DNA of 64,000 nucleotides from a virus: positions 1 to 64,000 of IMG/VR virus record IMGVR_UViG_3300012017_000779; one strand, written 5' to 3'. Under the pieces are notes generated by a model. That model saw only the letters and a program-made list of their open reading frames with translations, did not search any database and was not told the origin of the DNA. This document shows, in pieces, positions 3,544 to 46,148 of the stretch. Numbering within the stretch: position 1 is the stretch's first letter; the number at the start of each line of letters is the position of its first letter. Both the position numbers and the translations under genes were made by a program.

Positions 3544-3544
3544 T

Positions 3545-4116: not shown

Positions 4117-4250
4117 AGATTATTGGAATAATAGTATTGGTTATACTAGGAATCAGTTTATTACTGTTAACATGCATGGGTTTGTATGCTCTTTGGTTTA
4201 TGGCTTTTCCTGAATTTATTAATAAAATAAAAACTAAAATTAAAGACTAA
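4113..4250 (+). CDS. Small single-span membrane protein
   Basis: 45 residues, MKIIGIIVLVILGISLLLL at the start, then TCMGLYALWFMAFPEF and a basic tail KIKTKIKD. One long hydrophobic helix (about residues 3-33) with a positively charged C terminus predicts an inner-membrane peptide. Start and stop overlap the neighbouring genes by one base each (TAATG), strong evidence that it is a real translated gene in the coupled operon. Possible roles include a holin-like, superinfection-exclusion or membrane-anchor peptide; nothing in the sequence decides. Confidence 0.7.
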   Translation: MKIIGIIVLVILGISLLLLTCMGLYALWFMAFPEFINKIKTKIKD

Positions 4251-5129: not shown

Positions 5130-5534
5130 ATGATTTTAAACAAACAAGAAATTAAAAACATATTGAATATGTTACTTTCTGAAGATAAAGAAAATGCTAT
5201 AATTGCTTTTTCTTGTCTTAATAATTATGCTAGTAAAAAATATTTAGGTGAATTATTAGTATTATATCAATTTGGTAAAACATCAACTGAAGAATGGGAA
5301 AAAGAATGTAAAAAAGTTTTTAAACTTATAAAAAATGTTTTAAAACTTAATAGTACAAACTATAGATTTCCCTCTTCTACAGTATTTTCTGCTTTAATAG
5401 ATAATAAATGTAGTAAAGAATCAATAGAATTATATTTAGAATTATTTACTAATCAACTTTCTAATAATTTATATAATATGGGTTACCCTACAGATAAAAT
5501 AGAAATTAGTGTAAAAATAAAAGACAATGACTAG
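5130..5534 (+). CDS. Hypothetical helical protein
   Basis: 134 residues, Lys-, Asn- and Leu-rich, predicted largely helical (LNMLLSEDKENAIIAFSCL, YLELFTNQLSNNLYN). No motif or membrane segment. It ends with TAG inside the start of the following metallopeptidase/VWA gene (eight-base overlap), so the two are probably co-translated. Unknown function. Confidence 0.65.
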   Translation: MILNKQEIKNILNMLLSEDKENAIIAFSCLNNYASKKYLGELLVLYQFGKTSTEEWEKECKKVFKLIKNVLKLNSTNYRFPSSTVFSALIDNKCSKESIELYLELFTNQLSNNLYNMGYPTDKIEISVKIKDND

Positions 5535-14418: not shown

Positions 14419-14452
14419 AAGGGAGAAACATTATGTTTTTCCCTTTTTTTTT
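14419..14452. terminator. Shared terminator between convergent early and late blocks
   Basis: AAGGGAGAAAC (14419-14429) pairs with GTTTTTCCCTT (14435-14445), including one G-T pair, with a five-base loop. A run of T to 14452 serves the plus strand; on the minus strand an A/T-rich tract with TTTATTTTTAC follows. The stop of the 1159-codon minus gene lies within the T run (14451-14453), so the hairpin directly abuts both blocks. Confidence 0.8.
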
Positions 14453-17400
14453 AACGTTCTGATATAGACTTATATAATTTTGTAGCTTCTTCTGGATTAA
14501 AATTATAACCACTAAAGCCCATCATTCTTTTAAAATAAACCCATGCTTTATTATCTCCTTTTTCAACAACACCTGATTTTCTTTCATATACTTCAAAAGG
14601 AGAAGTTAGTTGACCAAGAAATTTTATAACTCTATCAACAGATGTTAACATTGCAGATGGACTTCTTACTTGACGGTAAGCATCTTTTATACTTACATAT
14701 GCTGCTGTTTCAGATTTCATTCTTGTAAGTTGATATACAAATAAATTCATAAAGTATCCTTTTTCATCATCATCATCATCTCCTGTAAGTAATGATAAAG
14801 CTAATATTAAAGATAATATTATTGATAGTTCCATTATTGCTTTTTTTATACTAGCTTTTTCAAAAGCACTGTAAGTTGACCAATTTTTTATTAAATTAAA
14901 TTTAAGTTTTTTTAAATCTCTTCCAGCAGTATCTAAAAATACTCTATAAAAACCTTCTGTCATACTATCAAGTTCAATGTCATATGATAATTTTTTAAAT
15001 CTCCTTTTAAAACCAGGAACCATATGTTTTCTATACATAAGTATTAATCTTCCTATGCTATATTTTTGAAATGTACTTTTATCAAATTTATTATAAATAC
15101 CTTGCATTCTTTTACTTAATGCATGTAATCTATTTTGAAAATCTTGTCTTCTTGCATCAGTAAAGGGTAATGTTTTATATTCAGTTCCTTCCATTATAGG
15201 TGCATTATAGGCATCTAGAATTACTATTTCTACTTTACCTTCTAAATTTGTACCTTCAGGAGAATTTATATATTTTTTATATGCTTCATATAGATCAATT
15301 ATTTTTTTAGATTCAATATCATAAACTTTTGTTCCATGCATTAATGCATACATATTACTAACTGCAATTTCATATTCACCCCAATGTTGATTAAAGAATA
15401 ATGTATTTGTACTCATAAGTTTACGGGCAACAGAAGCTGAAACTACTTTTCCATATTCATCTGTAAAATCACCTTGCATAGGTTCAAAAAGTTCTACTAG
15501 TCTTCCTTGAAAACTTTTAGGAGCTACATTACCTTGAAAAAAATCTCCAAGAGCAGCAGGTGTATCAGATATAAAATTTGTTTTTGCAGTTAAAAGATTT
15601 TTTTTAGTAAAAAATTCTCCAGAATTAGCTTCAATTATTAATTGAATATTTCCTTGTAAATTATTTGCAATACCTTTTAATAAGTCTCCAGCAATAGAAG
15701 TTAATGCAGAATATGCAATTCCTAAATTTGTTAATTTTCCTGAGTCAAATTTTGCACCAAGAGTTTCAAAACTAGATACTTGTTGAGATTCACCAAATAT
15801 AATCATATCAATGAAAGCATTTACATGAGCTTTACTATTATTATCAAATTGTCCTTTTGATATTATAGGAAGATTATATCCTAATTTCTTAGCAAAACTA
15901 TCTAAAATATTTTGTCCAGATGAGTCTGTTTTTTCAACAACTCTATCACCTATAGCAAATTTAAATAAATTAATTTCAGCATGTATTTTATTTAATGCAT
16001 CAAATTTATTAGACATAGCACTAAACTGTAATACACTAGCTCCTAAATCATATGATACAATATCAGTTGACATTTCACTTATAAAATATATAGGTAAGTT
16101 TTTATTTCCTTCACCTGCAATTGCAGAACTTTCAGATAAGTTACCAAAATCATCTTCATAATTTTGTACATTAAATGCTTCTTTAAATGTTTGTTTTGTA
16201 CCTTGAATTATATTAGTTTGTAATCTTTCATTAGTTGATTTTGGAATTGATGGTACATAATAACCAGGTCTTTTTGAAGATGGTAATTTTTCTTGTTGTT
16301 CAAAATATAATTTAGTCAACCCTTCATGCAATCTTCCTTTTTCATTTTTTGGTTTTCCATTTGTATCATACAAACTTGTCCAATTTTTATTTAAATATTT
16401 ATCTGCAGGTCTTGTAAATTCACTATTAAAATCTATACTAGAAGCCCAATTGTTAAATGTATCTTCATCAATAAATCCTTGTACTAAATCATTTTGTTTT
16501 TCTGCTATAGCAGCATCTTTTATACTTTGATCTACACTAGTAGTATTAGCTTTATACCAATCATTTTTTTTCTTTTTATATGCAGCTAATGCTACTGCTT
16601 CAGTAGGTATTTTTCCTAAATCTTTAAAAAATTTATATCTTTCAGTATTATATTTATTTATATCATATTTTTGTACAAAAGCAAGTCTTGTAGTTTTTAA
16701 ATAAGCTTCACTATCTTTTATATCTTCATCATAGTCTACATTTTTTTTAAAAGTATCTATTTCTTCATATATTCCAGAATATAAATTTTTAATTGATGTA
16801 GCTCTACTATAAGTTTTAAAATATGGTTCTAAATAATTTTTAAAAAGATCATTTTTAATTTTTATATCTTGTAATCTAGCAGTTTCCATTTCACTTTTTA
16901 TTGCTTTAGCAAACAATGCTATTACATTATCTTCTGAACTTATTAAAGGATCAACTAAATAATTAAAAAATGATTCATCAATATTTGTACTTGTTAGTTG
17001 ATCTATTAAAGTTTTTTCATCTAATGTAAAACCTAAAAGTTTATTTTTTTCAGCTTCTAGTTTTCTAACTCTATCAACAATAAATTCTGGTTTATTCTTA
17101 GGATAATTTCTAACATTTTCTATTCTTTTATCAATAGTTTCAATTTGATCTAAAATTTTTGCATTACCATATTCTGGTTTATATTTTAAAATAAAACTTG
17201 CTAATAATGGAATTGCACTTTTATTAAGATCTTTTTTCATCTTATCTCTAATTGCAATTGATTCTGTAATCCTTGCTTGAGGAGTCATTTTATTAATATC
17301 TATACCCATTTGAGAAAGAGTATTTTTATCTCCTTTAAAAAAGCTATCAATATCAGCTTTATCAATAGCATCTAGTATAGTATAGTTATTTATTCTAGTT

Positions 17401-17930
17401 AAAATAAGAGAAAAATCTTTCATTAAATTTTTCTTTTGAGTATCTGATAAATTTGGTTTTGCAGAAAGTTTTATCCAATCTTGAAAATCTTTATTTAAAA
17501 GTCTAAACTTTCTTAATGTATCATCAACAAATATTTCAAGAGATTTGATTTGTTGTATAGTATCTATGTCTTCATTTATTTTTTCTACTTTTAATTTTTC
17601 AATAGTTGTTTTTAAAGTAAAAAGTTCTTTTTCTTTTGATTTAAATTTTTGACCTGATAAAGCACTTAATTGTTTTTTAAGTTCAACTTCTATTTTTTCA
17701 ACTAAAGATTGTATTTCTATTTTTTGTTCAGCAGAAATATCTTTATTTTCTTTTACTTCTGTTTGATCTATAGTAGCACCTTCTTCCATTACTGAACTCA
17801 TATCAAATAAAAGTTCATCCTCATCTGCATAATTAAAGTATTTATCAGTAGCAGCTTGGTCACCATTATTTTCTGCTAACTTATCTATATACTCTTTTGA
17901 ATTTCTATTTATACAATTTCCTATTGACAT
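14451..17930 (-). CDS. Large virion cargo-type protein (1159 residues)
   Basis: Lys/Asp/Asn-rich, mostly helical; the first third contains coiled-coil-like stretches (QKIEIQSLVEKIEVELKKQL). Near the C terminus a hydrophobic helix (IMELSIILSLILALSLL) is followed by DDDDDE, then a conserved-looking tail (RQVRSPSAMLTSVDRVIKFL). This is the layout of the C-terminal regions of giant phage and mobile-element proteins injected into the host; membrane contact during ejection is plausible. The gene is last in a four-gene overlapping run and overlaps the RNA polymerase gene by ten bases. No enzymatic motif was found. By position it resembles the RNA-polymerase-associated proteins of crAss-like phages. 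Confidence 0.65.
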   Translation of the reverse strand: MSIGNCINRNSKEYIDKLAENNGDQAATDKYFNYADEDELLFDMSSVMEEGATIDQTEVKENKDISAEQKIEIQSLVEKIEVELKKQLSALSGQKFKSKEKELFTLKTTIEKLKVEKINEDIDTIQQIKSLEIFVDDTLRKFRLLNKDFQDWIKLSAKPNLSDTQKKNLMKDFSLILTRINNYTILDAIDKADIDSFFKGDKNTLSQMGIDINKMTPQARITESIAIRDKMKKDLNKSAIPLLASFILKYKPEYGNAKILDQIETIDKRIENVRNYPKNKPEFIVDRVRKLEAEKNKLLGFTLDEKTLIDQLTSTNIDESFFNYLVDPLISSEDNVIALFAKAIKSEMETARLQDIKIKNDLFKNYLEPYFKTYSRATSIKNLYSGIYEEIDTFKKNVDYDEDIKDSEAYLKTTRLAFVQKYDINKYNTERYKFFKDLGKIPTEAVALAAYKKKKNDWYKANTTSVDQSIKDAAIAEKQNDLVQGFIDEDTFNNWASSIDFNSEFTRPADKYLNKNWTSLYDTNGKPKNEKGRLHEGLTKLYFEQQEKLPSSKRPGYYVPSIPKSTNERLQTNIIQGTKQTFKEAFNVQNYEDDFGNLSESSAIAGEGNKNLPIYFISEMSTDIVSYDLGASVLQFSAMSNKFDALNKIHAEINLFKFAIGDRVVEKTDSSGQNILDSFAKKLGYNLPIISKGQFDNNSKAHVNAFIDMIIFGESQQVSSFETLGAKFDSGKLTNLGIAYSALTSIAGDLLKGIANNLQGNIQLIIEANSGEFFTKKNLLTAKTNFISDTPAALGDFFQGNVAPKSFQGRLVELFEPMQGDFTDEYGKVVSASVARKLMSTNTLFFNQHWGEYEIAVSNMYALMHGTKVYDIESKKIIDLYEAYKKYINSPEGTNLEGKVEIVILDAYNAPIMEGTEYKTLPFTDARRQDFQNRLHALSKRMQGIYNKFDKSTFQKYSIGRLILMYRKHMVPGFKRRFKKLSYDIELDSMTEGFYRVFLDTAGRDLKKLKFNLIKNWSTYSAFEKASIKKAIMELSIILSLILALSLLTGDDDDDEKGYFMNLFVYQLTRMKSETAAYVSIKDAYRQVRSPSAMLTSVDRVIKFLGQLTSPFEVYERKSGVVEKGDNKAWVYFKRMMGFSGYNFNPEEATKLYKSISER

Positions 17931-20900
17931 AATTTGTTATTTATTTCTGTTTCTATTTCAATTAAATCTTCTTTTGTAGTTGCATTATTTATTTTTTTAT
18001 AAACATCTTGTATATTTATATTAAATAAAGAAAGAAGTTCATCTAAATTATAAGCTATAACTTTTTGTTCAAAATCTTTAATAAAATCATTTTTTTGTTT
18101 TGCAGTTAATGGTATTGATTCTACAATATCTTCTTCCATTATACCAGTTACCATATTTACATTTTTTAATTGTACTTCCCCGGTATCTTGATCAATTAAA
18201 TCATAGTTAAAGTTTTTATTTAACTTCCATGTACTTACACCTACTGTAAAAGTTATTGGAGGTTTACCAGTAGCTATAAAAAGACTTTCATAAACTTCTC
18301 TAGCTTCATTAAGTCCTTCAAGTTCTTTTTTAATAGGAGCACTAGTAGATGGTTGAGACCAATCATATTTATTAATTAAATAATCTAAAGCTGTAGCATG
18401 AGACGGTTCTCCAAGTTCTGCATAATATTGAAGTTGTCTTCCTTTTAATTTACCTGATTTTAAAACATCTAGAATAAATGCTTTTCTTTTTGGTTTAACA
18501 TCTTTAAATTTATCAGTAGTTAACCAATCAATATAATTTATAACTGCTTCTTTAGTAGTATTAGTTTTTATAGTACCTGTTCTATTAAAAGAAGCCCAAG
18601 GATTACTAAAACTATTTACATCACTAACCACTTCCATAGTATAAACTCTATTGTTAGCTTTTGCTTCTTTTATATTAGCATCCCTATCATATTTACCATC
18701 TTTAGTTTTAATGTTAGAAATAACTACATTTTTATTTTCTAATTGAGAATATATATCATTACTATTAACACTAGTAGATGATTGAGTAGCAAGTGCAGTT
18801 TTAAGTTGTGCTCTCCAATTAGTATCAGCCATATTAATAGTTGGTATACCTTTTCTTCTAGCCATTTCAACAGCTTGTCCTGTTCCTCCTTTAGGTCTTA
18901 AAGGATCAGCTGTTTCTTTAGCATAGAATATTACAAAGTCTACTGGAGTATCAAGATTTTTACCAAATATTTGATTAGTATTTCTAGCCATTAAATTAGC
19001 TACAAATGCAGCAGATCTTTCAGGATCATTTCCTTTTGTTATAGCTTTTTTTCTAGTGCTATCTAACATTACATTCCAAGCAGGATGAATTTCTTCTGCT
19101 ATTTTAAGTTCTTTTTCTCCAGTTTTTACACTACCAATAAATATTTCTTTTAAAGATGTTACACCTTTTTCAAATGCAGCATCTGCACCAGCTGCTCCAC
19201 CACTTCTTAATGTATATCCTAAAGACTCTAAATATTTAGCAACTTCTGGCATAACATCAAGAACTTCTTGTGGAGTTTCTCTAGATCCTATACCTGCATA
19301 AGTCATAGTAGGTGTAGTAGATTTACTAGGAAGAGAATCAAATACAGGTCTATCACCTGATACAGGTGGTTGAGTAGGTTGACCAGTAGTAATTTTATAA
19401 CCAGTTTTTAAATCAACATTTTCAATAACAATTTCACCTCCATCTTTATCTACTAAATTATATAAATTATTTTTTTGTAAAATCCATGATGTACTATGTG
19501 GTGCTTTTTCATTTTTTCCTGTTTGTGAATTATAAAATTCTTTAAAAAATGTAGAAGGAGTAAAAAATTCTTTAGGTTTAACACCATTAGATTTTTCTAA
19601 ATATGTATTATATGCAGCAATATCATCATCTGATATAATTTTAGTTTTAATAATATTTTCTTCATTTTCTAAATCAAATTCTATTTCTATGCCATCATCA
19701 ATATCTTTTTTAACAGGATTGTTATATTGATCTGCATTTTCAGTATATTCAATAAACTGTCTATTTTTTACATCTATTACTTTACTAAAAATATTATTTA
19801 AAGTAACAAAAGAAAAATCTTTACTTTCTAAATCATTAATAAAAAATGTTGATGCATCAATCATTTCATCTGTAAATTTTTTAGCATCTAGAACTCTATT
19901 GATACTTAATTTACTATTTCCAAAACCATGTTGATAAAAAAGAATTAATGAAAAAGGTTTAAAAAATTCTAAAGATTTTTTATCTTTATTTATTGTAGGA
20001 TCTGCTAGATCTTTTAAGTTTTTATTATAAATAGAAGATATTTCTTTAGTTAATAAAGATTTGTTATTTAAACTTAATACTTTATTTATATTTCTTTTAT
20101 TACTTTTTAAAACTATATGATTTAAAACTGGAAAATTTACTTTTGTATCATCAAAGTTATTTATAATATTCATTATACTTTCTGAATATGAATATTTAGT
20201 TTTTCCCATTATGTATGGAGAATTAAAACTTTTTAATAAAGCAACTTCAGATAAGTATTCTTCAGTTACTTCAGTATCAATTAAAGAATCTCTTAGTACT
20301 TCTCTTTCCATTACATATCTTACATAACTTGAAAATGTTTGAAATGGATTTTTATTTTTTTCAAACACATCTAAAGCATCATCATTTAAAAATATTTTAT
20401 TATCAAAATCTGATTTTAATTTTTCTTCATTTACAATTATATTTTTTCCAACAATTACATCTTGTTGTATTGTATTATCAATTATAACATTTTTAGAACT
20501 TAAAGCTTTAGGAATAGTTATATGTTTTCCATTTACTGGATCAGTAAAATTAGACATATAGTTTTGATATATATAATCTACCACAGCATTATTATATGAT
20601 GAAGTAAAATATTCTTCACCTTTAACACCTTTACCAAATTTTCTTGTAATTCTAGCTCTTTCTTTTAATAACTTTTCAGAAATAAAAGAAGAAATATTTT
20701 TATCTAATCTTAATTTAAATAAAGGTTTGATTAAATCAATCATTAATGCATCCTGATTAAAAGATGAAAGCAAAGAATCTTTCATTAAAGCAGTAAGAAA
20801 CTCTTGATCTATTTTAGAATTTCTTTTTAATTTATCAAAAAGTTCTATTCTTTTTATAACTTGTTGTAATGTAGTAAGTTTACTAGTATCTGGTGCATAA

Positions 20901-23900
20901 ATCATTTGCAATGTTTCCAGACCTTCATATTGTTTTTCTAGTTCAATAAAATTTAAAAATAAAGCCAAAGATTTTAAAGATGCATCATTATTCATTGATT
21001 CTTTTAAATCAGATATGTTAATATCATCTTTAAATAATTCTTTAGATAAAACTTCTGATAAATAAACATAGTTGTTACTAAAATCATAAGTTTTAGTTTT
21101 ATTATCAAGAATTTTATTTTCAAGACTTTTTACTATATCATATACAACTTCATTATTATTACTTTTAATGCTGATAATATTTAATGGATTAATTTTTTTA
21201 TTATTTAATCCTTTTATTAATTCATTTAAAGTATAATAAAATGATTGTTTTTTATTATCTTTTATTAAATATTCATCATCAGCAGGATATATTTTTTCTA
21301 AAGACTTTATTGTAGTTCTTAATTTTAATAATGTAACACTATTAATAACTCTTTGTAATTCATCTGGTGCTAAAGTATTTAAAATTTTATTGCTTATTTC
21401 TGATGCAATATTATATTTATTACTTTTTTCAAATTGAGCATCTGTAGAAATTAATGGATTTAAAGAACTATTTTCTAATCTTTGTTTAAAAAAGTATTCT
21501 CTAATTAAAGGTTGAGTTACAAAATAAAAAACTTCTTCTTCATCTACACCTGCTTGCATTAAATAACTTATTACACCTATTCCTTCAGGAGTTAGTTGTA
21601 AAACAAAAGGGAAAGAATTTTTTGCTCTATCTAAAATACCGTTAAGCATGTGTGAATTAAGATCTGTAATTCTATTTCCTTTTTGAGACTTATTACCTGA
21701 TATAGAAATTACTTCATCACCATTTTTTGATTTTATAATGTTGTGTTTAAATCTTATAATAAAAGGAATGTCAATTAAACCATCTTCAAATTCACGTAAA
21801 TTTTTATTAAAAACAGAGTTTTTATATGACTTTGGCATCTTAGCACCCAACATTTTAAAGAGCACATGATTCTTTGTATTTTTAGCTTGTATTCCTAATG
21901 AAGGTTCTAAAGATAAATTAGCAGCAAACTTGTATAAATTATAGATATAATCATAATTTCTTGAAGGACTTATAATTTCTTTTTTTCCATCTGCACTTTT
22001 ATTTTTTTCACCAACTTTACTATCAGTATGAGAAACATTATCTAATCTATTATACTCATTTACAATATTATTTTCTAAAGATTTACTATATTTTTCTACT
22101 AAATATGTTAAATTAGGTTTTGTAAGTATTGCAAAGTTTTCAGGAAGAGTTAAAATATCTAAACTTATTTTAATGTATTGATTTTGTAAATACTTTTCTT
22201 GCTGTTTAATTAATTTATTAGATGTTAATGCACCTAATTCAAGTGTACCAGTAAACTCTTTATCTTTTGTTTCTTTTAATATTTTATTAAAGTTTTTTAT
22301 TGGAGTATTTATATAATTACCTTCTATATCAATATTAGGCATACTCATAAATAATTTATCACCATCATAATCAGAACCTGATTTAGCAACTATTTCTGTT
22401 GGAACAATAATAGCATTACCATAACTTTCATCTAGAAAATGCCATACCTCAGCTCCTTCAATTGTACTTAATGCATCATTAGGAATCCTTGGACCATATA
22501 AAGATATTGAAAGTCTATTTTTTTCTAACCAAGCATCATCTTTAATTAATTCATTTAATCTTGTTATAGTACCAATTTTATTACCTTGTAAGTCATTTCC
22601 ATTTAAAAGATTAATAAAGTCTCCTTGCAATGCAATAGCTACTTTCATTAAACCTGTTCTACCATTTTTATTTCGTATGTAAGAAGGCAGTGTATTTGTA
22701 CCTAATACTTTTTTAATTTCAGAAACTTTAGTAATTGTTTTATATTGAGTATTCCAAAGTCCATTTGTAAATGTAGAAGCAGCTTGAGTTAAAGGTTCAC
22801 CATTAATTGTTTGTTTAATTAATCTTGATTGAACAATACTCATTATAAGTTTTTCAATTGTTTGAGCTTCAGGATGTATAGAAAAATCCATAGATGCAGC
22901 ATTACCTTTTTTAGTTGCATTTAATAATCTAATTAAATGGTCAGGCACATCTCTTTCATCTAAGTTATCTCTGATAATTTTTATAAACTTTGAAAAATCA
23001 CCATTGCTTACATATTTTCCATCTTTTTCAGTAAAACCAATTTCATTAAGTAATTTTAATTTAAGTAATGCACTATAGTCATTTACTATTTTACTATAAC
23101 TATCTAATGTTTTTTTATTTTTTGGATTAATTAACTCTCCATTATCATATAATGTGTCTGTTAATATTACTCTTGTTTGTGTAGCAATTGGAAGACTTCC
23201 TTTAAAGGTGTCATTAATGACTGTAACTTCTTTTAAGTTAGCAAGGTATACTGGATTAATAGTAAATGTAAAATCATCACTGATGCCAGTATTTTCAGTT
23301 TTATCTTCAAAAATATCATCAGTTTCTTTATTACTAGTAAGTTCAGAACCTTTTGAACCTGATTTAAAAGTTACATACTGAACATTATCTTTTAACATTT
23401 TAAGATGCAACTTATATAGTTCAGATCCTTCTTTTGCATTCACTCCTGGTATTAAAGGACTAACAGCAAATTTATGCATAGCAATTGCTGGCAAATACTT
23501 ATTTTTTATAGCACCAAATAAATGTAACTTATATATAGGAAAAAATTGTTTAACTGTATTTGGATCAATAGTTTCTCCTTTAACAATTTTTTGATATAAA
23601 CTTTCTTGCTCCATTGACCAGCCTCTTCCACTTACTTTATGTAATATTCTATAGGCATCAATAGTCATAAAAGCCATACCATCACTTTCAACTATTTTTT
23701 CATAAGCTTCTCTATCTTCTTTGATTCTTTCTTCAGTCTCTGCTTCACTAAAAGTTTTTAAATAATCTTCTCTCCAAGCTTCAACTAAATCATCTATATA
23801 AATAGATTCTCTTGTAGCATCTTTAATAACTCCTGTATTTATTACTTCACTAAATACATATTTATTATAATCTATATTATCTTTACTTAAGCTTTTGTTA

Positions 23901-26900
23901 AGTTCAGAAGCATAAGTAGCATTTGTTTCTGTAGGTTTGTTAAATGTGTTATTAATAAAATTAATAGTTCCTTCATCAAATAAAAATCTAATACCATCAG
24001 AAGTACCACCTGGTATTCTTTTAGTCCAATCTTCTTTTGAATGATCCCATTGAGCTATATCTCCAAATAATAAAGTTGAGGTTTCAAATTTATATATCCA
24101 ATCATTATATAAAAAAGCTTTTAATAATACATCAGATAATTCTTCATTTTCATTAAGCATATTTAAGTCAGCTTGATTATTGACCTCCATACCAAGTTTT
24201 TTATATATACCTTTTGAGAATATATTTTTTTCTTTAATAGGATTATAATAATATTTTTTAAGCTCACTTACTTTATCATTAAAATATTTTTTAATTTCAT
24301 TTTGAATATTATTTTTTAAATCTGCATTATCTTTTTGTTTTAAAAGTTCAAGTAATGTTGATATTGTATCTTCTTTAACAGCTAACTTATATAATTCATT
24401 TTTAGTTTTATCAGATAATAAATTATCAAATGCTGAAAATACTTCACCTGCATAAACATCTTTTCCTTTTACTTTTTTTACTACTTGATTAAATCCACTT
24501 ATTTTTAATAATTCATCTCTATCAGGACCTTTGAATTTTTTTATTCTATCAAATTCACTTTCTATATATTTTAATAGATAACCTTCAATAGCATATGTTT
24601 CACCAGTATTTTCTTGAAAAGTAAACATTATTGGATCAACAAAAATATTATCATCAGTTCCTTTTGTTCCATCTGCAAGAGTTGGTTTAAGTAAACCTCC
24701 TTTCACTGTTAAACCAAAAGACATCTTCTTATCTGCTGTTCTTCCTAACTCAGCTTTACCATTAAGAAGCATCATATTAATATCCTGTATAAATTTACTA
24801 AAAGGGTCTAATTTAGTAGTTATTGTTCCTGAACCATCCATTTCAGAAGTACCATCTATTACAATTAAATTTAAATTTTTGCCTTTAATTTTAACTTTAT
24901 CAATACCAAATAAACTCTGAAACATTACAAGATTCTTAGTAAAAGCATTTATTTTTGGATCTAAAAAATTCATGTGATTAAGAATAGGATTTTTACCATT
25001 CCATAATTCATCTTGTTTAGATACAGAATTTATTGCATATAAGTTATTTGTAACTGAACTTGCATTCATTGTTTCATATGCAACATTACCATCAGCTCTA
25101 ATTACAGCATTAGTTGAACTATCAAATCCATATTGAGATTGAAGTTTTGCTAAATTTTTTATTTGTGTATTTTGTTTAATAACATTTACTTTATCTATCT
25201 CTGGTAAAATATTTTTAGGAATTTCTTCTTTTAATATTTTTATTGGATTTTCTTTAAAGTCTTTTATATATTTTTTTTGTAAAGCTGTTTTTTGTGGAAG
25301 TTTATCAACATTATTAAAGGCATTTAAAATTCTAAATATATATTTTAATCCATAAGGTGTAGAATTATTTTTTAATTCATCTTTAATATTATTATTATTG
25401 GCTAATCCTATTCCTATGGCATTTGCAAATTCTAATTGTTTATTAATATCAAGTTCATTTTCTTTTGTTTGTTTAAATTCACTAACAACTTTATCTAAAT
25501 TTAAATTAGGGACATTAGCTACAACATCTATAAACTCATTATAAATACTTAAACTATTAAATTCAGATATCCATTTCTCAATAATAGAAGAAGTTTCCAT
25601 AGAAAGTTCAATTACTTGAAAGTTTACAGTTTCATCACGGGATGCAACTAATTGTACATATTTAACATTAGGTTTTCCAAAATCATTAAAAAATGATACA
25701 CTTAAGTCATACTCAAAAGTATTTGTAGTGTTAGGTTCAGGATATTTTTCTTCAAAGAATTGTTTTAATTCTGGATATTTTTTATATTCTTTTTCTAATT
25801 TTTTATATGCTTCATCTCTATCTGATATATTACCAATTATTGCATATAACATATTAAATATATCTGAAAAATCAGCTCTTTCTTTAAATCCAAATCTATC
25901 AACAGGTGTGCTAATATCTCCATTTTTGTTTCTAACAACTTTAAATAAAGATTTTATTACATATATAGTTTCTTTAGATAACATGTCCTGAAGTGATATT
26001 TTTCCAGGTACAGCATCTATTGTTAATTCATCAACTCCTTCTTCTTGTTCTGTTTCTTCTTTTGCATCTACTGCAATATCATATACTTTTTTTGAAGTTT
26101 TAAAATCACTATTTTCTGAATGATATTTAATTACACCTGACCCTTTACTTCCCCAGTTATCAAGTGTTGTTTGTAGTATTCTTATATTATCAAGTATAAC
26201 AGATTGTTCCGGACTTAAAACAGTTTCTGATATAGAATCAGTAATTAATTCTGTATAATTTTCAGTTACACCTTCTATTTTATTAAATTTTTCTTGTTCT
26301 TTCTTAAGTTTATCTTCTAGAATTTTTTTAGTTTCTCTATACAAATATTCTTTTTGTTCAATACCTTTTAAAAATAAAACATTAGCTGCTTTTAAATTTT
26401 GTTTTCCAGCTGCTTTTCTTTTATTATATATGTCACTTAATAGTTCAGCCCATATATTATCTATTGTCATGGTTACTTCTAAAGAATCTTGATTACTTAA
26501 TATATCTATAGAAGGATTATTAACTTTTCTAATTCCACGGTCAAGTTCATATAAAATAGCATTTTCTATTAAAGGTTTATAACTATTAATCTCTCCTATA
26601 TATAACTTATTAAATAAGTCTTTTGCCATAGGAGAATTCATGCTATCAACAAGTATATCTTTTTTAGAAAAAACATTTAGTTTACCAAATAATGCTTTTA
26701 AAAAATTAAGCATTTTTCTAAACAAAGTATTTTTAACTGGTGTCTCAGGACTTGGCTTTTGATTTTTAGCATAGTTTCTAAAATCTTCAGCTAACATTTC
26801 TTCTAACTCTAAATAAGATTTATTTATATTTGGTTTATTCCCTTTTGAATCAGTATAATTTCTTAATTCAGTATATAATTTAATTTTATCTTGAGGAGTC

Positions 26901-29386
26901 AAAAACAATTGTGAAAATATATGCCATGCTTCATGATACAAAGTAAGATTTTGGAATATATCTCCTTGTTTTCTATTTACTGCTATAGTTGCTAAACTTC
27001 CATCTGGATTAGCTATTTTACTTGCATTAACTATAAATGTTGCATAAACATCTGAATTAACTAAGTTAAACACTTGTTTAAAAGAAATTACTTTTCTTAA
27101 TGGTTCAAGTGCTTTACTATTCCACCAAGTATTGATATCTTCAAGTTGTTCTTGAGTTATTTTTTCTTTTTTAAATCCTTTTCTATCAAGACCTTTAAAT
27201 ATATCATCATTTATATCAATACCGGTATCAGTATCATTTGGATTAGCTGCTCCTGGAACAATAGTATTTTGAATAACATCTGTTTCTGATTTTATTTCTT
27301 TAACTTCTTTAGTCTCAACTTTTTCTTTAGGTAAAGCTAAAAATTGACTTCTAAAAAATTCTCTTTGTTTATTAGTAATAGCTGAAGGTTGTCCATTATA
27401 ACTTGACATGTCTGTCCACTCATTTATAATTTTTGTAAATTGTTCTTGAGTATCAAATTCTCCTTTATCAAGAGCTGTTTTAATAACATTAAACAATACA
27501 AAACTTAAATTTTCATTAAAAGAAAATCCTTGACTATTAGTAGTAAAACCATCTGCAATTTTTTTTCTAGCTTTTTCTAAAAAATAATCATAAGATAATT
27601 CAGATTCAACTTCATCAGATTCTATACTTTCTTTTATATTATCAAAAGATACATCTTCTGCTGAAAAATTTACTACAAAATTAAAAACATCATTAGATAT
27701 GTTTTTAAAATCTATATTAGGATTTAAACTAATAATTAAATCTAAATAATCAGCTTGAACAATTTCTTTTGTTTCTGTATTATAATCATTATAAACATGA
27801 TTTCCTTTAATAAATTCATTATTATAAAAAAGATATGGAGGATTATTAAAGAAAATATTTTTAATTTTAGTTTCATAATCTTCAATACTATCATCAGATA
27901 TATTAGATACATTTAATTCTTCAATAATTTCTTTAGAATCTTTGTCAATTATTTTAAATATTAAATTAGAACCTTCTTCTTTAATTAAAAAGTTTCTATT
28001 ACCTTTAGAATCTAAGAATAAAAACTGCTTTACAAAATTTAATTTTACTTTATTTTTTAAATTTTTATTAGTTAAAACTTTAGCAATTTTTATTGCAAGT
28101 TGATCTGACATTTTCATTCTGTCAATTTCAACTTTTTCATTTTTAAAAGATATAGTTGCTTTTTTAGATGAAGCATCAATAGTTTTTAAACTCTCTTTAT
28201 TAAACAGTGTACTATCTATTAATTCTTTTAACTTATATGTATCACTAATTTTATTTTCTGTAATACCAGTTGATATATTTGTTATTGGTAATAATAAGTC
28301 TTCTGTATTTTTTTTATTTTTAATTTTATTTTGTAGAGCTAACAGTTGTTCTGATTCTTTTTTTAAAGTCTCTTTAATTTCTTTAAGAAATAAAGCCTGG
28401 TCTTCAGCTGTAGAACCATTTATTTCTGGATCATAAGTATTTTTGTATATAGTTTCTGCAGATTGTATAGTTATAGCTTTACCATAAAAATCTTTTACAA
28501 CTATTTTATTATTTTCAACAGAAGCATTTCTCATAAACTGATAAACAATTTTACCAGTTTCAGCTAAATTACCATCTTTGTCAAAATATAAAAACTTACC
28601 GTTTGTATCAGTGATTACTAAGATTATTTTTTCATCTGCCTGAATTACATTTTTTTGATTTTTTCCTTGTGATGATAAATGTCTAGAATCTTTAACTTCA
28701 GTTATAGTAGTTGGATCAAGTAAACTTTCATTCTTAGTAAAAAAATCATTTAAAATAAATGGTTTAAACATTAATTTTTTACCCTGATACATAACAGTAT
28801 ATACATCCTCTTCCATATTTTGAGAAGCTGATATGTTTTCAAGTGCTTTTACTATATGTGCTCTACCGGGATCATCTTCTTCTATGATTAACTTCTTATT
28901 AGGATCTTTAGATTTTAATGTTTGTAATGTTCCACTCAATGGAGAAGCAGTTAATAATCTTTTTGATTTACTAAAAGGTTTTGGTGGTTCATTTTCATCA
29001 TCTTCTTCTTCTTCAATTTCATTTGATTTTATTCTATCTATAATATCTTTTAAGTTTATTTTTTTATCTGATAAAGTATCAATTATTATATTGATTGCAT
29101 TATCTGACATATACTGCACATTTAATTTTCTTAAAGATGTTAAATCAACATCAATATTCATAAAAGATAAATTTGTATTTGCTACATCAATAATTAATCT
29201 TGGTACAGACTGTAAATATTTAGCTGCTACTTCAGGTGACGTAGCTTCAGCAAACTTTTTATATAAACTTTTTAAATAATTTTCATACTTAAAAACACCT
29301 TCTTTAGAAGATATTTTAAATTGAGCTGTTATGTGTGAATATAATAAACTAACAATTTCAGGATTATTAATTGAACAAGTAATCAT
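17921..29386 (-). CDS. Giant multidomain virion RNA polymerase (metalloprotease motif - RNAP - SLOG)
   Basis: 3821 residues. H818-E-A-W-H822 in LYHEAWHIFSQLF is a zincin metalloprotease motif. The RNA polymerase core centres on D2339-Y-D2341-G-D2343 (KSGSDYDGDKLF), preceded by SLYGPRIPNDAL and GNAIIVPTEIVAK. This matches the double-psi-beta-barrel catalytic loop of YonO/crAss-like single-chain RNA polymerases, such as phage phi14:2 gp66, which travel in the virion and transcribe early genes. Upstream segments (LPAIAMHKFAVSPLIPGVNA) belong to the same region. Residues about 3360-3520 are a SLOG (Rossmann-like nucleotide-binding) domain beginning YAGIGSRETP, followed to about 3690 by a DUF4326-like domain (PWASFNR, YYAELGEPSHATALDYLI). 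Similar 35-residue segments flank this pair. Such fusions fit the polyvalent-protein concept. The stop is TAG; the start overlaps the upstream stop (TAATG). Confidence 0.85.
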   Translation of the reverse strand: MITCSINNPEIVSLLYSHITAQFKISSKEGVFKYENYLKSLYKKFAEATSPEVAAKYLQSVPRLIIDVANTNLSFMNIDVDLTSLRKLNVQYMSDNAINIIIDTLSDKKINLKDIIDRIKSNEIEEEEDDENEPPKPFSKSKRLLTASPLSGTLQTLKSKDPNKKLIIEEDDPGRAHIVKALENISASQNMEEDVYTVMYQGKKLMFKPFILNDFFTKNESLLDPTTITEVKDSRHLSSQGKNQKNVIQADEKIILVITDTNGKFLYFDKDGNLAETGKIVYQFMRNASVENNKIVVKDFYGKAITIQSAETIYKNTYDPEINGSTAEDQALFLKEIKETLKKESEQLLALQNKIKNKKNTEDLLLPITNISTGITENKISDTYKLKELIDSTLFNKESLKTIDASSKKATISFKNEKVEIDRMKMSDQLAIKIAKVLTNKNLKNKVKLNFVKQFLFLDSKGNRNFLIKEEGSNLIFKIIDKDSKEIIEELNVSNISDDSIEDYETKIKNIFFNNPPYLFYNNEFIKGNHVYNDYNTETKEIVQADYLDLIISLNPNIDFKNISNDVFNFVVNFSAEDVSFDNIKESIESDEVESELSYDYFLEKARKKIADGFTTNSQGFSFNENLSFVLFNVIKTALDKGEFDTQEQFTKIINEWTDMSSYNGQPSAITNKQREFFRSQFLALPKEKVETKEVKEIKSETDVIQNTIVPGAANPNDTDTGIDINDDIFKGLDRKGFKKEKITQEQLEDINTWWNSKALEPLRKVISFKQVFNLVNSDVYATFIVNASKIANPDGSLATIAVNRKQGDIFQNLTLYHEAWHIFSQLFLTPQDKIKLYTELRNYTDSKGNKPNINKSYLELEEMLAEDFRNYAKNQKPSPETPVKNTLFRKMLNFLKALFGKLNVFSKKDILVDSMNSPMAKDLFNKLYIGEINSYKPLIENAILYELDRGIRKVNNPSIDILSNQDSLEVTMTIDNIWAELLSDIYNKRKAAGKQNLKAANVLFLKGIEQKEYLYRETKKILEDKLKKEQEKFNKIEGVTENYTELITDSISETVLSPEQSVILDNIRILQTTLDNWGSKGSGVIKYHSENSDFKTSKKVYDIAVDAKEETEQEEGVDELTIDAVPGKISLQDMLSKETIYVIKSLFKVVRNKNGDISTPVDRFGFKERADFSDIFNMLYAIIGNISDRDEAYKKLEKEYKKYPELKQFFEEKYPEPNTTNTFEYDLSVSFFNDFGKPNVKYVQLVASRDETVNFQVIELSMETSSIIEKWISEFNSLSIYNEFIDVVANVPNLNLDKVVSEFKQTKENELDINKQLEFANAIGIGLANNNNIKDELKNNSTPYGLKYIFRILNAFNNVDKLPQKTALQKKYIKDFKENPIKILKEEIPKNILPEIDKVNVIKQNTQIKNLAKLQSQYGFDSSTNAVIRADGNVAYETMNASSVTNNLYAINSVSKQDELWNGKNPILNHMNFLDPKINAFTKNLVMFQSLFGIDKVKIKGKNLNLIVIDGTSEMDGSGTITTKLDPFSKFIQDINMMLLNGKAELGRTADKKMSFGLTVKGGLLKPTLADGTKGTDDNIFVDPIMFTFQENTGETYAIEGYLLKYIESEFDRIKKFKGPDRDELLKISGFNQVVKKVKGKDVYAGEVFSAFDNLLSDKTKNELYKLAVKEDTISTLLELLKQKDNADLKNNIQNEIKKYFNDKVSELKKYYYNPIKEKNIFSKGIYKKLGMEVNNQADLNMLNENEELSDVLLKAFLYNDWIYKFETSTLLFGDIAQWDHSKEDWTKRIPGGTSDGIRFLFDEGTINFINNTFNKPTETNATYASELNKSLSKDNIDYNKYVFSEVINTGVIKDATRESIYIDDLVEAWREDYLKTFSEAETEERIKEDREAYEKIVESDGMAFMTIDAYRILHKVSGRGWSMEQESLYQKIVKGETIDPNTVKQFFPIYKLHLFGAIKNKYLPAIAMHKFAVSPLIPGVNAKEGSELYKLHLKMLKDNVQYVTFKSGSKGSELTSNKETDDIFEDKTENTGISDDFTFTINPVYLANLKEVTVINDTFKGSLPIATQTRVILTDTLYDNGELINPKNKKTLDSYSKIVNDYSALLKLKLLNEIGFTEKDGKYVSNGDFSKFIKIIRDNLDERDVPDHLIRLLNATKKGNAASMDFSIHPEAQTIEKLIMSIVQSRLIKQTINGEPLTQAASTFTNGLWNTQYKTITKVSEIKKVLGTNTLPSYIRNKNGRTGLMKVAIALQGDFINLLNGNDLQGNKIGTITRLNELIKDDAWLEKNRLSISLYGPRIPNDALSTIEGAEVWHFLDESYGNAIIVPTEIVAKSGSDYDGDKLFMSMPNIDIEGNYINTPIKNFNKILKETKDKEFTGTLELGALTSNKLIKQQEKYLQNQYIKISLDILTLPENFAILTKPNLTYLVEKYSKSLENNIVNEYNRLDNVSHTDSKVGEKNKSADGKKEIISPSRNYDYIYNLYKFAANLSLEPSLGIQAKNTKNHVLFKMLGAKMPKSYKNSVFNKNLREFEDGLIDIPFIIRFKHNIIKSKNGDEVISISGNKSQKGNRITDLNSHMLNGILDRAKNSFPFVLQLTPEGIGVISYLMQAGVDEEEVFYFVTQPLIREYFFKQRLENSSLNPLISTDAQFEKSNKYNIASEISNKILNTLAPDELQRVINSVTLLKLRTTIKSLEKIYPADDEYLIKDNKKQSFYYTLNELIKGLNNKKINPLNIISIKSNNNEVVYDIVKSLENKILDNKTKTYDFSNNYVYLSEVLSKELFKDDINISDLKESMNNDASLKSLALFLNFIELEKQYEGLETLQMIYAPDTSKLTTLQQVIKRIELFDKLKRNSKIDQEFLTALMKDSLLSSFNQDALMIDLIKPLFKLRLDKNISSFISEKLLKERARITRKFGKGVKGEEYFTSSYNNAVVDYIYQNYMSNFTDPVNGKHITIPKALSSKNVIIDNTIQQDVIVGKNIIVNEEKLKSDFDNKIFLNDDALDVFEKNKNPFQTFSSYVRYVMEREVLRDSLIDTEVTEEYLSEVALLKSFNSPYIMGKTKYSYSESIMNIINNFDDTKVNFPVLNHIVLKSNKRNINKVLSLNNKSLLTKEISSIYNKNLKDLADPTINKDKKSLEFFKPFSLILFYQHGFGNSKLSINRVLDAKKFTDEMIDASTFFINDLESKDFSFVTLNNIFSKVIDVKNRQFIEYTENADQYNNPVKKDIDDGIEIEFDLENEENIIKTKIISDDDIAAYNTYLEKSNGVKPKEFFTPSTFFKEFYNSQTGKNEKAPHSTSWILQKNNLYNLVDKDGGEIVIENVDLKTGYKITTGQPTQPPVSGDRPVFDSLPSKSTTPTMTYAGIGSRETPQEVLDVMPEVAKYLESLGYTLRSGGAAGADAAFEKGVTSLKEIFIGSVKTGEKELKIAEEIHPAWNVMLDSTRKKAITKGNDPERSAAFVANLMARNTNQIFGKNLDTPVDFVIFYAKETADPLRPKGGTGQAVEMARRKGIPTINMADTNWRAQLKTALATQSSTSVNSNDIYSQLENKNVVISNIKTKDGKYDRDANIKEAKANNRVYTMEVVSDVNSFSNPWASFNRTGTIKTNTTKEAVINYIDWLTTDKFKDVKPKRKAFILDVLKSGKLKGRQLQYYAELGEPSHATALDYLINKYDWSQPSTSAPIKKELEGLNEAREVYESLFIATGKPPITFTVGVSTWKLNKNFNYDLIDQDTGEVQLKNVNMVTGIMEEDIVESIPLTAKQKNDFIKDFEQKVIAYNLDELLSLFNINIQDVYKKINNATTKEDLIEIETEINNKLCQ

Positions 29387-32300
29387 TATTGACAGTTTTT
29401 AATTTTGGTTAATAAATCATCTTCAATTTTTGTAATATTATCTTTTAATCCTATTTCAGTTGCTTTATTTTTATCTTCAGTAGAATTTATAAAAGTATCA
29501 GTAGTATTTTGTACTTCTTTTAAAATAGTTTTTTCAGACTCATTTGCTTCATAAGTACTTTCTTCAGATTTTAAATTTTCAATATCTTCAGAAGTTAAAT
29601 AAAGGTCTTTATTTAATAAATCTTTTGTATTAACAATTGATTCTTTAGAATTTTTTCTATTTCCTTTTATAGTAATTTTATCTCCATCAACTTTCATAAC
29701 TGTAACTTGTGTATAATCTTTATTATTTTTAAAATATCTTGAATTAACTTCTATAGGACTAACAAATTCTTCTTTAACTTCACCATATAAAGATAGTAAA
29801 TTATCTTTTAAATTAGTTAACTTTTCAATACTTCCTAGAATATTCTTTTTTTGAAAATCAATTTTTGCATATTGTAGTTTATTTGTTAATTTTAAAATTT
29901 CATTAGTTAATAAAGAATTATAATTTGTCTTATTTAAATTGCCAAGTACATTAACTGTATCTTGTAAATTCATATGAAAAGAAGATTGACCCATATAAGA
30001 AAATAATGTTTTTTGATATACTTTAAATTCTTGTGCATTAGAAGTATCATTTGCAATTAAATATTCAATTCTTATTACAGCATTATGAATAAGTTCAGAA
30101 ACTTCTGCCATATTTAAATCTTGAGATTCTATTGATTGATATTCTACATCAGTAATAATTTTAGTAGCATTTAAAATTTTAGCTGCCATTAATTGATTTT
30201 CATGAGGAGGTTTTGTACTATCTTCAAATGATTTATGTTTATCATAATAATTTTTAAACTTATTATCTCCATCTTCAGATACTTTAAGTCTGTCAGCAAT
30301 AAAAGCATTACTAATTGCTATATTTGAAATATCAGGTATAGTAATTGATTTTAATATATTTTCTAACTTATCTAAAGATATTTGACTATTTTCTAAATCT
30401 TTTTTATAACTGTTAATAATAACTGCATTCTTATTTTTTAAAAGTTGTACTTCTTGTGATGTTTGTTTTATATCAGGACTTTCAAAAGAAAAAGATTGAG
30501 CTCCTTCATCATCTTTAGGTGCTAATAAATCATCTATTTCTTCCGCAACACTTTCTAATGAAAGAGGAATAAATACATCATTAATTGCATTATTAGGACC
30601 TGTTTTAAATATTTTTTCTTCAAAGTCTTTATCACCTTTAGGATCTTTAAACTTATTTTTCTTTACTTTACCATCATCATCAAATTCATAAATTACTTCT
30701 TTTGCTAAACCTGCTGCTAATGGTTTTTTAGCAGAAATAATTTGATCTGTTTCTTTATCAGATTCTCTTTCTATTGGCAATAATCCTATTTCTGTTTCAA
30801 CACCAGTTTGTCTTTTTAATAACTCTCTATACACTGCTTGTTGTAAAGTATATTCATTTCTTTTTGAATATTTTTTATTATCAAAACTATTTGTTAGTGA
30901 ATTAAAATTTGTCCATTTACTTTTAGAACCTGTTTTGATATCTATAATAAATGCATTACCTTTTTTATCAACTACAATTAAATCTATTTCTCCAGCAATT
31001 CTATCTTTTTTACCTTCTTCAGTAACAATATTAGAATCCCAAACAACTAAATTATTACCTACAATATAGTAACCTTCATCTTTAAATTTCTTACCTAGTT
31101 GAACTATATATCCAGTATCATCATTAAATAATTCTTCATATGCTTTTTTAGAAATTATTTTTTCATCAAACTCAGGTTTTTTTCCATATTGAAAATAATC
31201 TTTAATTAAATCTACATAGTTACCGGCAACTCTTCCATCTTCATAAGATTTTTCTGATATTAAATTTAATACTTTGTCAAAAAGTTCTTCATTGTTTATA
31301 TCAGTTTCAACAGTTGTATCTAAAGCAGCTAGTTCTGTATTATTAATTGTAAATATTGCAAATCTACCATCTTCTTTTACTTTTGTTAATAATCCTTTAT
31401 CAACAGCTTTATTATGCATTTTAATAGCACCTTCACCAGCAGATTCAGTTTTTAATGTTTTAACACCTTTTGCTTTTAAGTATCTTATTAAAGTTTCAAA
31501 CATTTTTGAACCTTGCCCTTTACCAACTTCATTAGCAGATATACCATCTATTCTAAATTCTGTAGGTGAAATCATTACTCCACTAATAAGACCATCTTTA
31601 GTTTTAAATTGATATAAATCCCCATTAATTACAATATTATTAATAGTTCCAATTTCAATTTTTGAAATTTCTGGAGTTCCTAAATATTCTATATCAGCTT
31701 TAGTATCTGTAGTACCTAAAGCAGTTAGTTTTGCAGTTAAAGTTTTTAAGTCTGCATTTAAAGTTTTAACTCTATCTTTATTTTTTGCTTTTTTAGATAA
31801 TGCAATATCTTCTTTTAAAGATTTAATTTGGTTATTTAAAGATTCAATTTTATTATTTACTACATTAGATGTTATAAAAGATTTTATATCTTTAGATAAC
31901 TCAGTAAATAATTTATCATTAATACCTGATGCACCACCATCTTTTAAAAGTTTAATAAAGGCATCTACAGAAGCTTCATTAAGACCATTTTTTCTAATAG
32001 TATCATCATATGATTTTTCTACTAGTTTATAACTACTATATTCATATTTTTCTAAATAAGCTTGTATAGCATTAGTAACACGTCTGTGTACTAAGTTATC
32101 TATTAAATAGGCTTTATCTCCTTTTTTAAGACCTGTTACCGGGTCATCTTCAGTTAGTACATAATCTTTTTGAACTGATTTATTTAATGCTATAAGTTTT
32201 TCTATTTCTTTAATTACCTTTTTTTGAGGAGTTGTTCTTTCCTGTAAACTTCTAGACTTATTAACTTTAAGTAATTTTTTTGTTTCTTCACTTAAAGTTT

Positions 32301-35300
32301 CAATTTCTAATTTTTTAATATTATAATTAGGATCATCTTCTTTAAGTTTAGATAATTCTTCTCTTAATTTATTTAATTCTTTACTTTTTTCATTAACAAC
32401 AGCTATTATTTGATTAGTACTTAAATCATTAGTGTTAACAGTTTTATCATTATTTTGAAAAGTAAATTCTGATATTAATTCAATATCTTTATTAAATTCA
32501 TCAATGATAGTTTTTGCAGAAGCATCAGTATTAACCCAATCTTGAAATGCTTTTGAAGAAGCATCAGGAGCATTTATTTTATCTTCAGTTGTTTTACTTG
32601 GTAATGTAGTTTGAAAATCTTTGTAAAGTTTATCTTTTAATCCATCAGACATAGCTTTAAAATCTGATTCACCTATAATATAAGGATCTTCAAATTCTAA
32701 ATCAGTTAAACTTTTAGAAGTTTCAAAGTTTTTAATAATATCTAATTTCTCTTTAGCATATCTATTTTCTATTTCAGTTACTTTTATTGGATCTGGAATT
32801 AATTCTTCAGAGTAAACTTTATTTTCAGTAAATCTAGTTTTGTCATTTAAATCATATACATCTCCTGTTTCATCATTATATCTTAATACTCCTTGATCAT
32901 CTTTGTATAATATTATTGTTGTTTCAGAATTTTTTGGAGTAAGTTCAATATAAGAATTATTATTTAATATTTCATCAACATTTTTAATACTGATTGATTT
33001 AGCATTTCCTTTTAATTCAATAGATTCTTCAGGAATTTGTGTAACTGTTTTTTCTAAAAGATCAAGTTCATTTTGTTTTTTTTCTTCTAATTTAACAAGT
33101 TCTTCAGTATAATCAGCTATTACATTACTTACTTCTGAAAATTTAGATTTTGCTTTTAGATCTCTATCTTTTGATAAATACTTATCATATATTTCATTAT
33201 ATTTTACAGTATCTATTTTATAAACTTCTCCGTCTATTGAATTAAAAAACTCAGAGGGTCTAGTTCTTAGTGTTTGCCAGTCAGAATAGTCATTAGCACT
33301 CATATAAAGGCCTTCATCAGCCATTGCATTTAATAAGGCATTACTTTCAATATTAGCAATTTCTTGTTTAACTAAATCTCTAAAATATTTTTTTCTATTT
33401 TTATATAATCTTTTAGACCATTCTGTATTTTTTCTAACTAATCCATAAAAATTTTCAGGATCACTAAGTAATTCTATATGAGATGCTAAATTTCTAGAGT
33501 CTTTATTTAATTTATAAAAGTCTACAAGTTGTACAAAAGCATCATCTAATTCTGTACTAAAAATATTAGTATCCTGAGCTTTTGCTAATGTACGTAAATA
33601 AGAGTCATGAGATTTTTTAAGATTACTTAATAGTTCAATCATTTTTTCTTCATCATCTTCTTTACCATATAACTTAGACATTTTTTCTTCAATATCTTCA
33701 GCAGTAATATCTTGTTCTGTATCTTGTTGAAGTTCTTCTTGAACTTCTTTAGTGTATTCTGATCTATTAGTAAATCTATTAAATGCATCATATGAAGTTT
33801 TAAACTCTTTTAAAGTTGAAATTTCTTCTTCTAAATCATTTATTTTAATTTTATCTGACTCTATAGTTGTAGAAGTTTTAGACTTAACTCCTTTTTTTAA
33901 CATATCTAATTCTAACTCAAAAGAATTAATACTATCAGCTAATAACTTAACTTGAAATAATGGTGAAATTTTTGAACTACTAACATTTTTTAAAGTACTA
34001 TTTTTTAAATAAGTTTGCTTAATACTACTAATTCTATTTGCAACATCTTTAAATGCTTCATTTGCATAAACAATATTTTTAACTGCAACATCCCAACCAT
34101 TTCTAAGAGCAGCAGCTTCTACATAATTAGGATCACTCCTATCAGGCATGTTGTCATTATTTATTGGATTTGGAAAATTTTCAGAAACAGTTTCATAAGC
34201 TTCTTTTATAGAATCAATTTTATTTATAGTCTTGTCTATTTTTAATCTATATCTTTCAGCATCTTTTAAATCATCAAACTTTAATTCTTCTTGTAATGCT
34301 TCATCAGAAACATCTCTTAATGATTTTAATTTATCTTGAAAAATTTCAGAAGAACCAGTTTTTATCATAGTAGAAACTTGGTTGATTAATGAATCTAACT
34401 CAGCATCTTTAGATTCTTTTGTATTTGCTTGTTCCTTTATTAAAGATAATGTATCTTGAGAACCTGCATTTACATATCTATTAGATAATAAATCATTTAT
34501 ATCAATCTTATTTAATTCATTTACCAAAGTATTTGTTACTGCTTCTTTTTGTTCTGTCCAAGCTTTATATCCTGCTTTATCAAAAATTCTTCCATAAGCA
34601 TTTTGTAACAATGAAAAAGTTTTGTTCATGCCTCCACCTAATGTTCCCATAAAAAAACCTGAAGCAAAAGTTTCAAATCCTTGTGCTGAAAACTCTTTAT
34701 TAAGTTCTTCATTGTAAATACTTAATGGTGTTCCTGAATTATTTTTTAGGTTAATACTATTAACAGCATTATTAAAAAGACTTGCTTTTAAATATGGACT
34801 ATTATAAGAATCAGTATACCATTTTTCATTAGCTCTTGCAATAATTTCTTGTGCATTTTCTTGAAATCCTTCAGAAAAATTAGATTTAAAATATTTAATA
34901 GAACCAAGTACTGATTTAGAAAGAGGTTGTTTCATCCAACTTTTTGCTAAATTTTTAAAACCTTGATATCCAACAGATGATTGATATAAAAATTGTTTAG
35001 CTGTTTTATCATATAATACTTTACCTATGGTACCAAAAGATTTATGTGAAACATTCATTATATCTTGAGTAGCATTTTTAAAGTAATTTTTTATACCACC
35101 TTTATTTAAAATGTTTCCAAAAGTTATTTTATTTGTTCCATATATTAATCCAGCATTTTTATAAAAAGTTTCTAAACCAGATTTTACAGAAACTTTAGTC
35201 ATATCCTCCTGTTCTTCATTAGTAGGGGCTCTTTTATTTCTTAAATAAAATTGATCATATTTATTATTATAAACTTTATCCTGAACCATTCCTGCTTCTA

Positions 35301-46133: not shown

Positions 46134-46148
46134 AAACTTAATAAGTTT
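46134..46148. terminator. AT-rich palindrome between late units
   Basis: AAACTT-AAT-AAGTTT overlaps the stop of the 1727-codon gene by two bases and lies upstream of the promoter-like element, the same order as at 39430-39444. Weak as a terminator; may be an operator. Confidence 0.35.

Follow-up and report, generated by a model that had tools for sequence, protein, structure and literature searches.

What a single phage polypeptide of 3821 residues does with a polymerase-like catalytic loop, a metalloprotease-like motif and a SLOG plus DUF4326-like pair, and which parts of so long a chain are constant, is the question raised by an open reading frame in a 64,000-nucleotide stretch of viral DNA (the whole stretch analysed, hereafter the window), itself part of an 82,178-bp IMG/VR record. 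A preliminary description had located the HEAWH and DYDGD motifs of this frame exactly where we find them (Table 1), had given no strand, which is the minus strand, and had called the product a polyvalent protein, a name that fits, since multiple unrelated enzyme domains lie in one phage polypeptide. It missed that the SLOG and DUF4326-like segments are, as judged from comparison with relatives, two cassettes within an exchange slot that has its own DNA boundary element. Our main conclusion, to which we assign a probability of roughly 75%, is that the gene belongs to a divergent crAss-like phage and encodes its virion RNA polymerase, with exchangeable C-terminal cargo that is traded in frame at a 21-bp element, ACTCAAYCATCTACTAGTGTT.

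Table 1 Features of the giant polymerase gene and its neighbours in the window
Feature	Residues	Window position	Strand	Evidence or remark
RNA polymerase-associated protein		14451..17930	-	homologue of phi14:2 g065 and crAss001 gp49
Giant virion-type RNA polymerase gene, 3821 aa		17921..29386	-	ORF and profile homology to 6VR4 / phi14:2 gp66
Module R2, right slot bracket	3715-3748	18143..18244	-	
Boundary element copy 2, degenerate, TCTCAACCATCTACTAGTGCT	3677-3683	18338..18358	-	3 mismatches; 0.00 expected in shuffles
Cassette 2, DUF4326-like	3541-3676	18359..18766	-	97.5-99.8% DNA-identical to cassettes of L061, L123, L109, L156
Boundary element copy 1, ACTCAATCATCTACTAGTGTT, TQSSTSV	3534-3540	18767..18787	-	exact; 0.00 expected in shuffles
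Cassette 1, SLOG / DprA-like	3360-3536	18779..19309	-	phrog_768, E 1.3e-45
Module R1, left slot bracket	3296-3330	19397..19501	-	
gp66-like polymerase core	1129-2854	20825..26002	-	hhalign probability 100%, E 2.4e-43
Catalytic loop DYDGD	2339-2343	22358..22372	-	aligned to gp66 DFDID 1361-1365
Putative zincin-like (HExxH) domain	~750-960	26507..27139	-	conserved block; homologues in cr118_1, cr108_1, crAss001 gp47
Invariant E863 and E867	863-867	26786..26800	-	candidate third metal ligand
HEAWH motif	818-822	26921..26935	-	H, E, H invariant, 54 sequences
N-slot region, low conservation	551-760	27107..27736	-	conservation dip; cassettes/elements there in some relatives
2338-aa homologue of crAss001 gp47		29386..36402	-	PD-(D/E)XK nuclease domain

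Results

Sequence profiles place the giant protein among crAss-like virion RNA polymerases

Sequence profiles lend strong support to the single-chain RNA polymerase proposed in the preliminary description and to its likening to phi14:2 gp66. PDB 6VR4, the phi14:2 gp66 structure, was matched at E 1.7e-21 by a profile of residues 1450-2640 made from ten relatives, and when the profile was built from ~50 relatives hhalign extended the alignment with gp66 over 1365 columns; crAss001 gp50 was aligned too (E 4.1e-27, ~1274 columns). Because GSDYDGDK of the window protein is aligned with GSDFDIDK of gp66, D2339 corresponds to D1361 of gp66. Of 58 non-redundant relatives, only L086 lacked a match to the motif; in the others a DxDxD loop with its three Asp was present, in the variants DFDVD, DFDID, DFDGD and DYDGD. 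Two double-psi beta-barrels are expected in the window protein from its homology to 6VR4; they rest on that homology because the AlphaFold model of residues 1450-2640, computed with 10 sequences, was too poor to be used (pLDDT 44). A PDB search with the whole protein as a single sequence returned only designed PPR proteins through low-complexity-like matches, which were discarded. By these alignments the window protein is a crAss-like virion RNA polymerase and a new addition to the known family. Its core is homologous to those of phi14:2 gp66 and crAss001 gp50, the position of the catalytic loop is identical and the large genes are syntenic, whereas gp66 (2180 aa) has neither the HExxH domain, which in the window protein lies within ~900 extra N-terminal residues, nor the C-terminal cargo slot.

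The rest of the 82,178-bp record carries crAss-type portal, major head protein and terminase genes (PHROGs). Because of these genes, and because homologues of g065/gp49 and of gp47 are the neighbours of the polymerase gene, the source genome is assigned on gene content to a divergent crAss-like phage, in which the transcription gene block adjoins other large RNAP-associated proteins. In crAss001, gp47, gp49 and gp50 were found in virions (PMC10172136), and by analogy the polymerase of crAss-like phages is probably carried within the particles.

Several other genes of the window were annotated in passing. The PD-(D/E)XK domain of the neighbouring 2338-aa giant protein gave a DUF3799 match (E 4.4e-7). 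In a 1727-aa protein (46147-51330), a weak SET-like stretch (E 0.0066) is N-terminal and an Amidase_2 domain (E 1.6e-16) C-terminal, a protein with VWA-like DUF2201 and putative metallopeptidase domains (5527-6714) adjoins an AAA ATPase, as in a MoxR/VWA-like pair, and a glycosyl hydrolase family 16 gene (4250-4960, E 1.1e-15) lies in the early/replication region of the phage.

A conserved HExxH domain lies upstream of the core

The metalloprotease motif of the preliminary description proved genuine and of ancient origin, and gut crAss-like phages carry homologues of it, but the search for its fold matched nothing. HE[ASG][WF]H occurs at the same position in essentially all relatives, and H818, E819, H822 and the downstream E863 and E867 are invariant in an alignment of 54 sequences, so that the conservation of HEAWH exceeds chance. 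Foldseek with the model of the domain (pLDDT 71) found nothing below E 0.8 and matched no protease, and because of this negative search the name zincin rests on the motif and its conservation. In cr118_1 and cr108_1 the homologous domain is on the polymerase chain itself, as in the window; in crAss001 a profile match places it near the C-terminus of gp47, the product of a separate gene. Rudgehvirus encodes, just upstream of its catalytic subunit, a large protein annotated ZnMc_tr by the depositors, with an HExxH motif near the C-terminus that was not a profile match. The domain of the window protein thus sits just upstream of the gp66-aligned part, where in other crAss phages one gene ends and the next begins; this position fits a processing role without showing one. 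A second HExxH motif, HEYAH, was seen near the C-terminal end of certain long tails (L063, L067 and L070).

The C-terminal end varies as a slot for enzyme cassettes

Alignment of relatives showed that conservation drops sharply past about residue 3230, and the length of the tail ranged from 61 to 2062 aa among 77 relatives. The tails carry SLOG/DprA, NADAR, AlkB-like 2OG-Fe(II), ART-PolyVal, SF1 helicase, AAA/zeta-like kinase and RNase H domains (AlkB-like enzymes repair alkylated bases), and the cassette families include matches to NADAR at E 1.9e-17, 2OG-Fe(II) at 7.1e-8, cpYpsA SLOG at 4.8e-11 and DUF7831 at 2.5e-11. From these comparisons, the C-terminal end of the giant polymerase is a hypervariable plug-in slot for exchangeable enzyme-domain cassettes.

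In the window the slot holds two of them. Cassette 1 bears out the earlier SLOG assignment as a SLOG/DprA-like domain by its PHROG match (Table 1), Pfam DprA being matched only below threshold. The DUF4326-like label of cassette 2 holds up less well: the window segment has no Pfam match, and a cassette in L049 that belongs to the same cassette family matched DUF4326 at E 0.025, which falls short of the cut-off. The closest relative, the sister phage L001/L021, matches the DNA of the window at 98.5% identity as far as residue 3341 and, starting again at residue 3677 with element copy 2, at 96%; between these points the sister lacks the SLOG cassette and has ~140 residues that are unrelated to the SLOG and DUF4326-like pair of the window.

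In the clade of the window the slot is flanked on both sides by a 35-residue module R, and in several distant relatives R2 is found on a separate downstream gene of ~250-310 aa. Module R was considered as the exchange sequence and rejected, because its two copies resemble each other at the protein level only and because it is at the 21-bp element that identity starts and stops.

A 21-bp element bounds the cassettes and keeps their frame

The edges of the cassettes coincide with the 21-bp element, which reads in frame as TQ[PS]STSV and is almost unchanging at synonymous positions; the peptide recurs between cargo domains and never occurs in the core of the relatives examined. The 18-base core of the element was found in 62 IMG/VR stretches, against none for the reversed control. 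Counted at up to 3 mismatches, the element has 120 copies, every one of them within an ORF of at least 150 aa and read in one and the same frame; the 45 cassettes that lie between neighbouring copies all have lengths divisible by 3. Sixty-eight copies were located in the C-slot, 11 in the N-slot and none in the core, and for the other 41 the fetched ORF fragments were too short to assign a position; about 10 of the 41 unplaced loci also carry crAss homologues.

Since most copies were found with an exact DNA pattern, the apparent invariance is inflated, and this was partly corrected by examining codons of peptides instead: among relatives fetched by protein similarity alone, 15 of 17 TQ[PS]STSV peptides have one of two standard codon strings, each expected by chance at 0.2-0.3%. 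Eleven whole records were checked, and wherever a record carries copies, these lie together in one cluster. Arrays reach seven copies per gene, and within an array the one variable base of the element differs less between copies than expected (p 0.005). In L061 (6133-9540), six of the seven copies are exact in the 18-base core, all share one reading frame, and they separate DUF4326-like, 2OG-Fe(II), FGSN-type, NADAR and other cassettes. Many tails of the family have no recognisable element, and therefore exchange need not depend on it. Named phage records gave only weak partial matches to the element, none of them in a crAss-like record, and a search of GTDB genomes gave 3 chance-like matches.

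A second region of low conservation, the N-slot, precedes the HExxH domain; in the window it has no 21-bp element. In L106, L107, L110 and L127, elements and cassettes were observed in the N-slot just ahead of the HExxH domain instead of at the C-terminal end.

Nearly identical cassettes occur in very divergent phages

Cassette 2 of the window is 98.6% identical in DNA to its counterpart in L061, 97.5% to that in L123 and 97.9% to those in L109 and L156, phages whose polymerases show 31.6-35.7% protein identity to that of the window. In L061 and L123 the identity starts at the left element and stops inside the right one, and in L109 and L156 divergence is seen at the cassette end. Cassettes are also shared between the two slots. 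One pair, 79% identical in amino acids, occupies the C-slot in L061 and the N-slot in L127; another segment, 90% identical in amino acids, is in the C-slot of L049, and in L107 it precedes the HExxH domain and has elements on its flanks. Read from these alignments, the cassettes have moved horizontally, with sharp edges, between very divergent phages.

Alternative explanations

The preliminary description suggested that the giant chain is a self-processing polyprotein in which the HExxH domain cuts its own chain and frees the polymerase. The location of the domain just upstream of the gp66-aligned region, together with the HExxH motifs that crAss001 and Rudgehvirus have towards the C-terminal end of another large protein, encoded beside the polymerase gene, is in keeping with such cleavage, but the domain may target host proteins instead and its predicted structure matched no protease, so we regard self-processing as doubtful. 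A related idea, which we think quite unlikely, is that the element matters as peptide and not as DNA, TQ[PS]STSV being a flexible linker or a cleavage site, for example one cut by the HExxH domain to free the cargo. The peptide always lies in frame between cargo domains, a conserved HExxH domain is on the same chain and in some phages directly follows the array, and processing by zincins has been suggested for polyvalent proteins (PMC5512222). A constraint on the peptide alone, however, would not freeze synonymous positions, and the codon string is nearly invariant, keeps two different serine codons (TCT and AGT) and contains the point at which transferred DNA identity ends.

If the element is read as DNA, a recombinase or a homing-type nuclease could recognise it, giving an integron-like array in one reading frame. 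For site-specific exchange of this kind speak the short, nearly invariant sequence with its palindromic ACTAGT centre, the multiple copies per gene, the homogenisation within arrays and the GIY-YIG genes in 4 of 11 records; yet a search of the 11 records, some of them incomplete, detected no tyrosine or serine recombinase (and hence no integrase of the integron type), resolvase, RecT or ERF, no attC-like site was found, and the window's own record had no GIY-YIG domain detected in this search, which makes such exchange unlikely. Finally, the shared cassettes could be chimeric assembly joins at repeats, as all element-bearing relatives are metagenome contigs and ~450-bp repeats can mislead assemblers. 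We consider this artefact very improbable, as every cassette between elements keeps the frame and the matches are inexact (97.5-99.8%), come from different IMG datasets and are seen again in many contigs.

Discussion

We therefore favour an exchangeable cargo slot on a virion RNA polymerase, and propose the following working model. The constant chassis consists of the N-terminal region, the HExxH domain and the gp66-like polymerase, followed by the C-terminal slot, which holds one or more enzyme-domain cassettes, in the window SLOG and DUF4326-like. As in crAss001, the virion probably contains the whole chain and injects the chassis along with its cargo, in which case the cargo would act in the first minutes of infection. 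Its most likely targets would be NAD/ADP-ribose defence signals or damaged nucleic acid, the targets predicted for several of the exchangeable effector domains being NAD/ADP-ribose signals or damaged DNA. The element would double as the DNA crossover point and as the peptide linker, serving as a short stretch of homology for cassette exchange, and co-infecting phages would most likely exchange cassettes by homologous or annealing recombination at this shared sequence. More tentatively, and at somewhat under even odds, crAss-like phages may share a dedicated, integron-like cassette exchange by which polymerases of ~30% identity trade injected anti-defence enzymes, loaded in series.

The delimiting of exchangeable modules by a short conserved sequence is familiar from lambdoid 'boundary sequences' and integron gene cassettes. 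The delimiter described here is similar to these, but it lies within one ORF and the frame is kept.

Polyvalent proteins likewise combine many unrelated enzyme domains and a zincin-like peptidase on one chain, as set out by Iyer et al. 2017 (PMC5512222); that paper deals with architectures, and no conserved in-frame DNA element or sharp-edged cassette transfer was found in the passages searched. It also reports that N4-like polymerases are always fused to zincin-like peptidases (PMC5512222), and the combination of polymerase and peptidase-like domain is therefore not new; the fusion of a polymerase with such a domain and with effectors follows a known theme. A role in dealing with immune signals derived from NAD/ADP-ribose has been proposed for SLOG, NADAR and DUF4326 (PMC9503650). 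The phage effectors considered there share the domain set and the proposed role against diffusible ADP-ribose signals with the cargo described here, but they are mostly standalone proteins, whereas ours are exchangeable modules of a polymerase chain. No description of an element-bounded, in-frame, mobile cassette slot was found in the literature searched (open-licence papers only).

Such a slot would reveal a way in which abundant phages of the gut and the environment swap injected enzymes without rebuilding the polymerase. The element also provides a search tag that pulls out cassettes, many of them of unknown function, and cassettes tagged in this way would be good counter-defence candidates against NAD/ADP-ribose-based and DNA-damage-based immunity.
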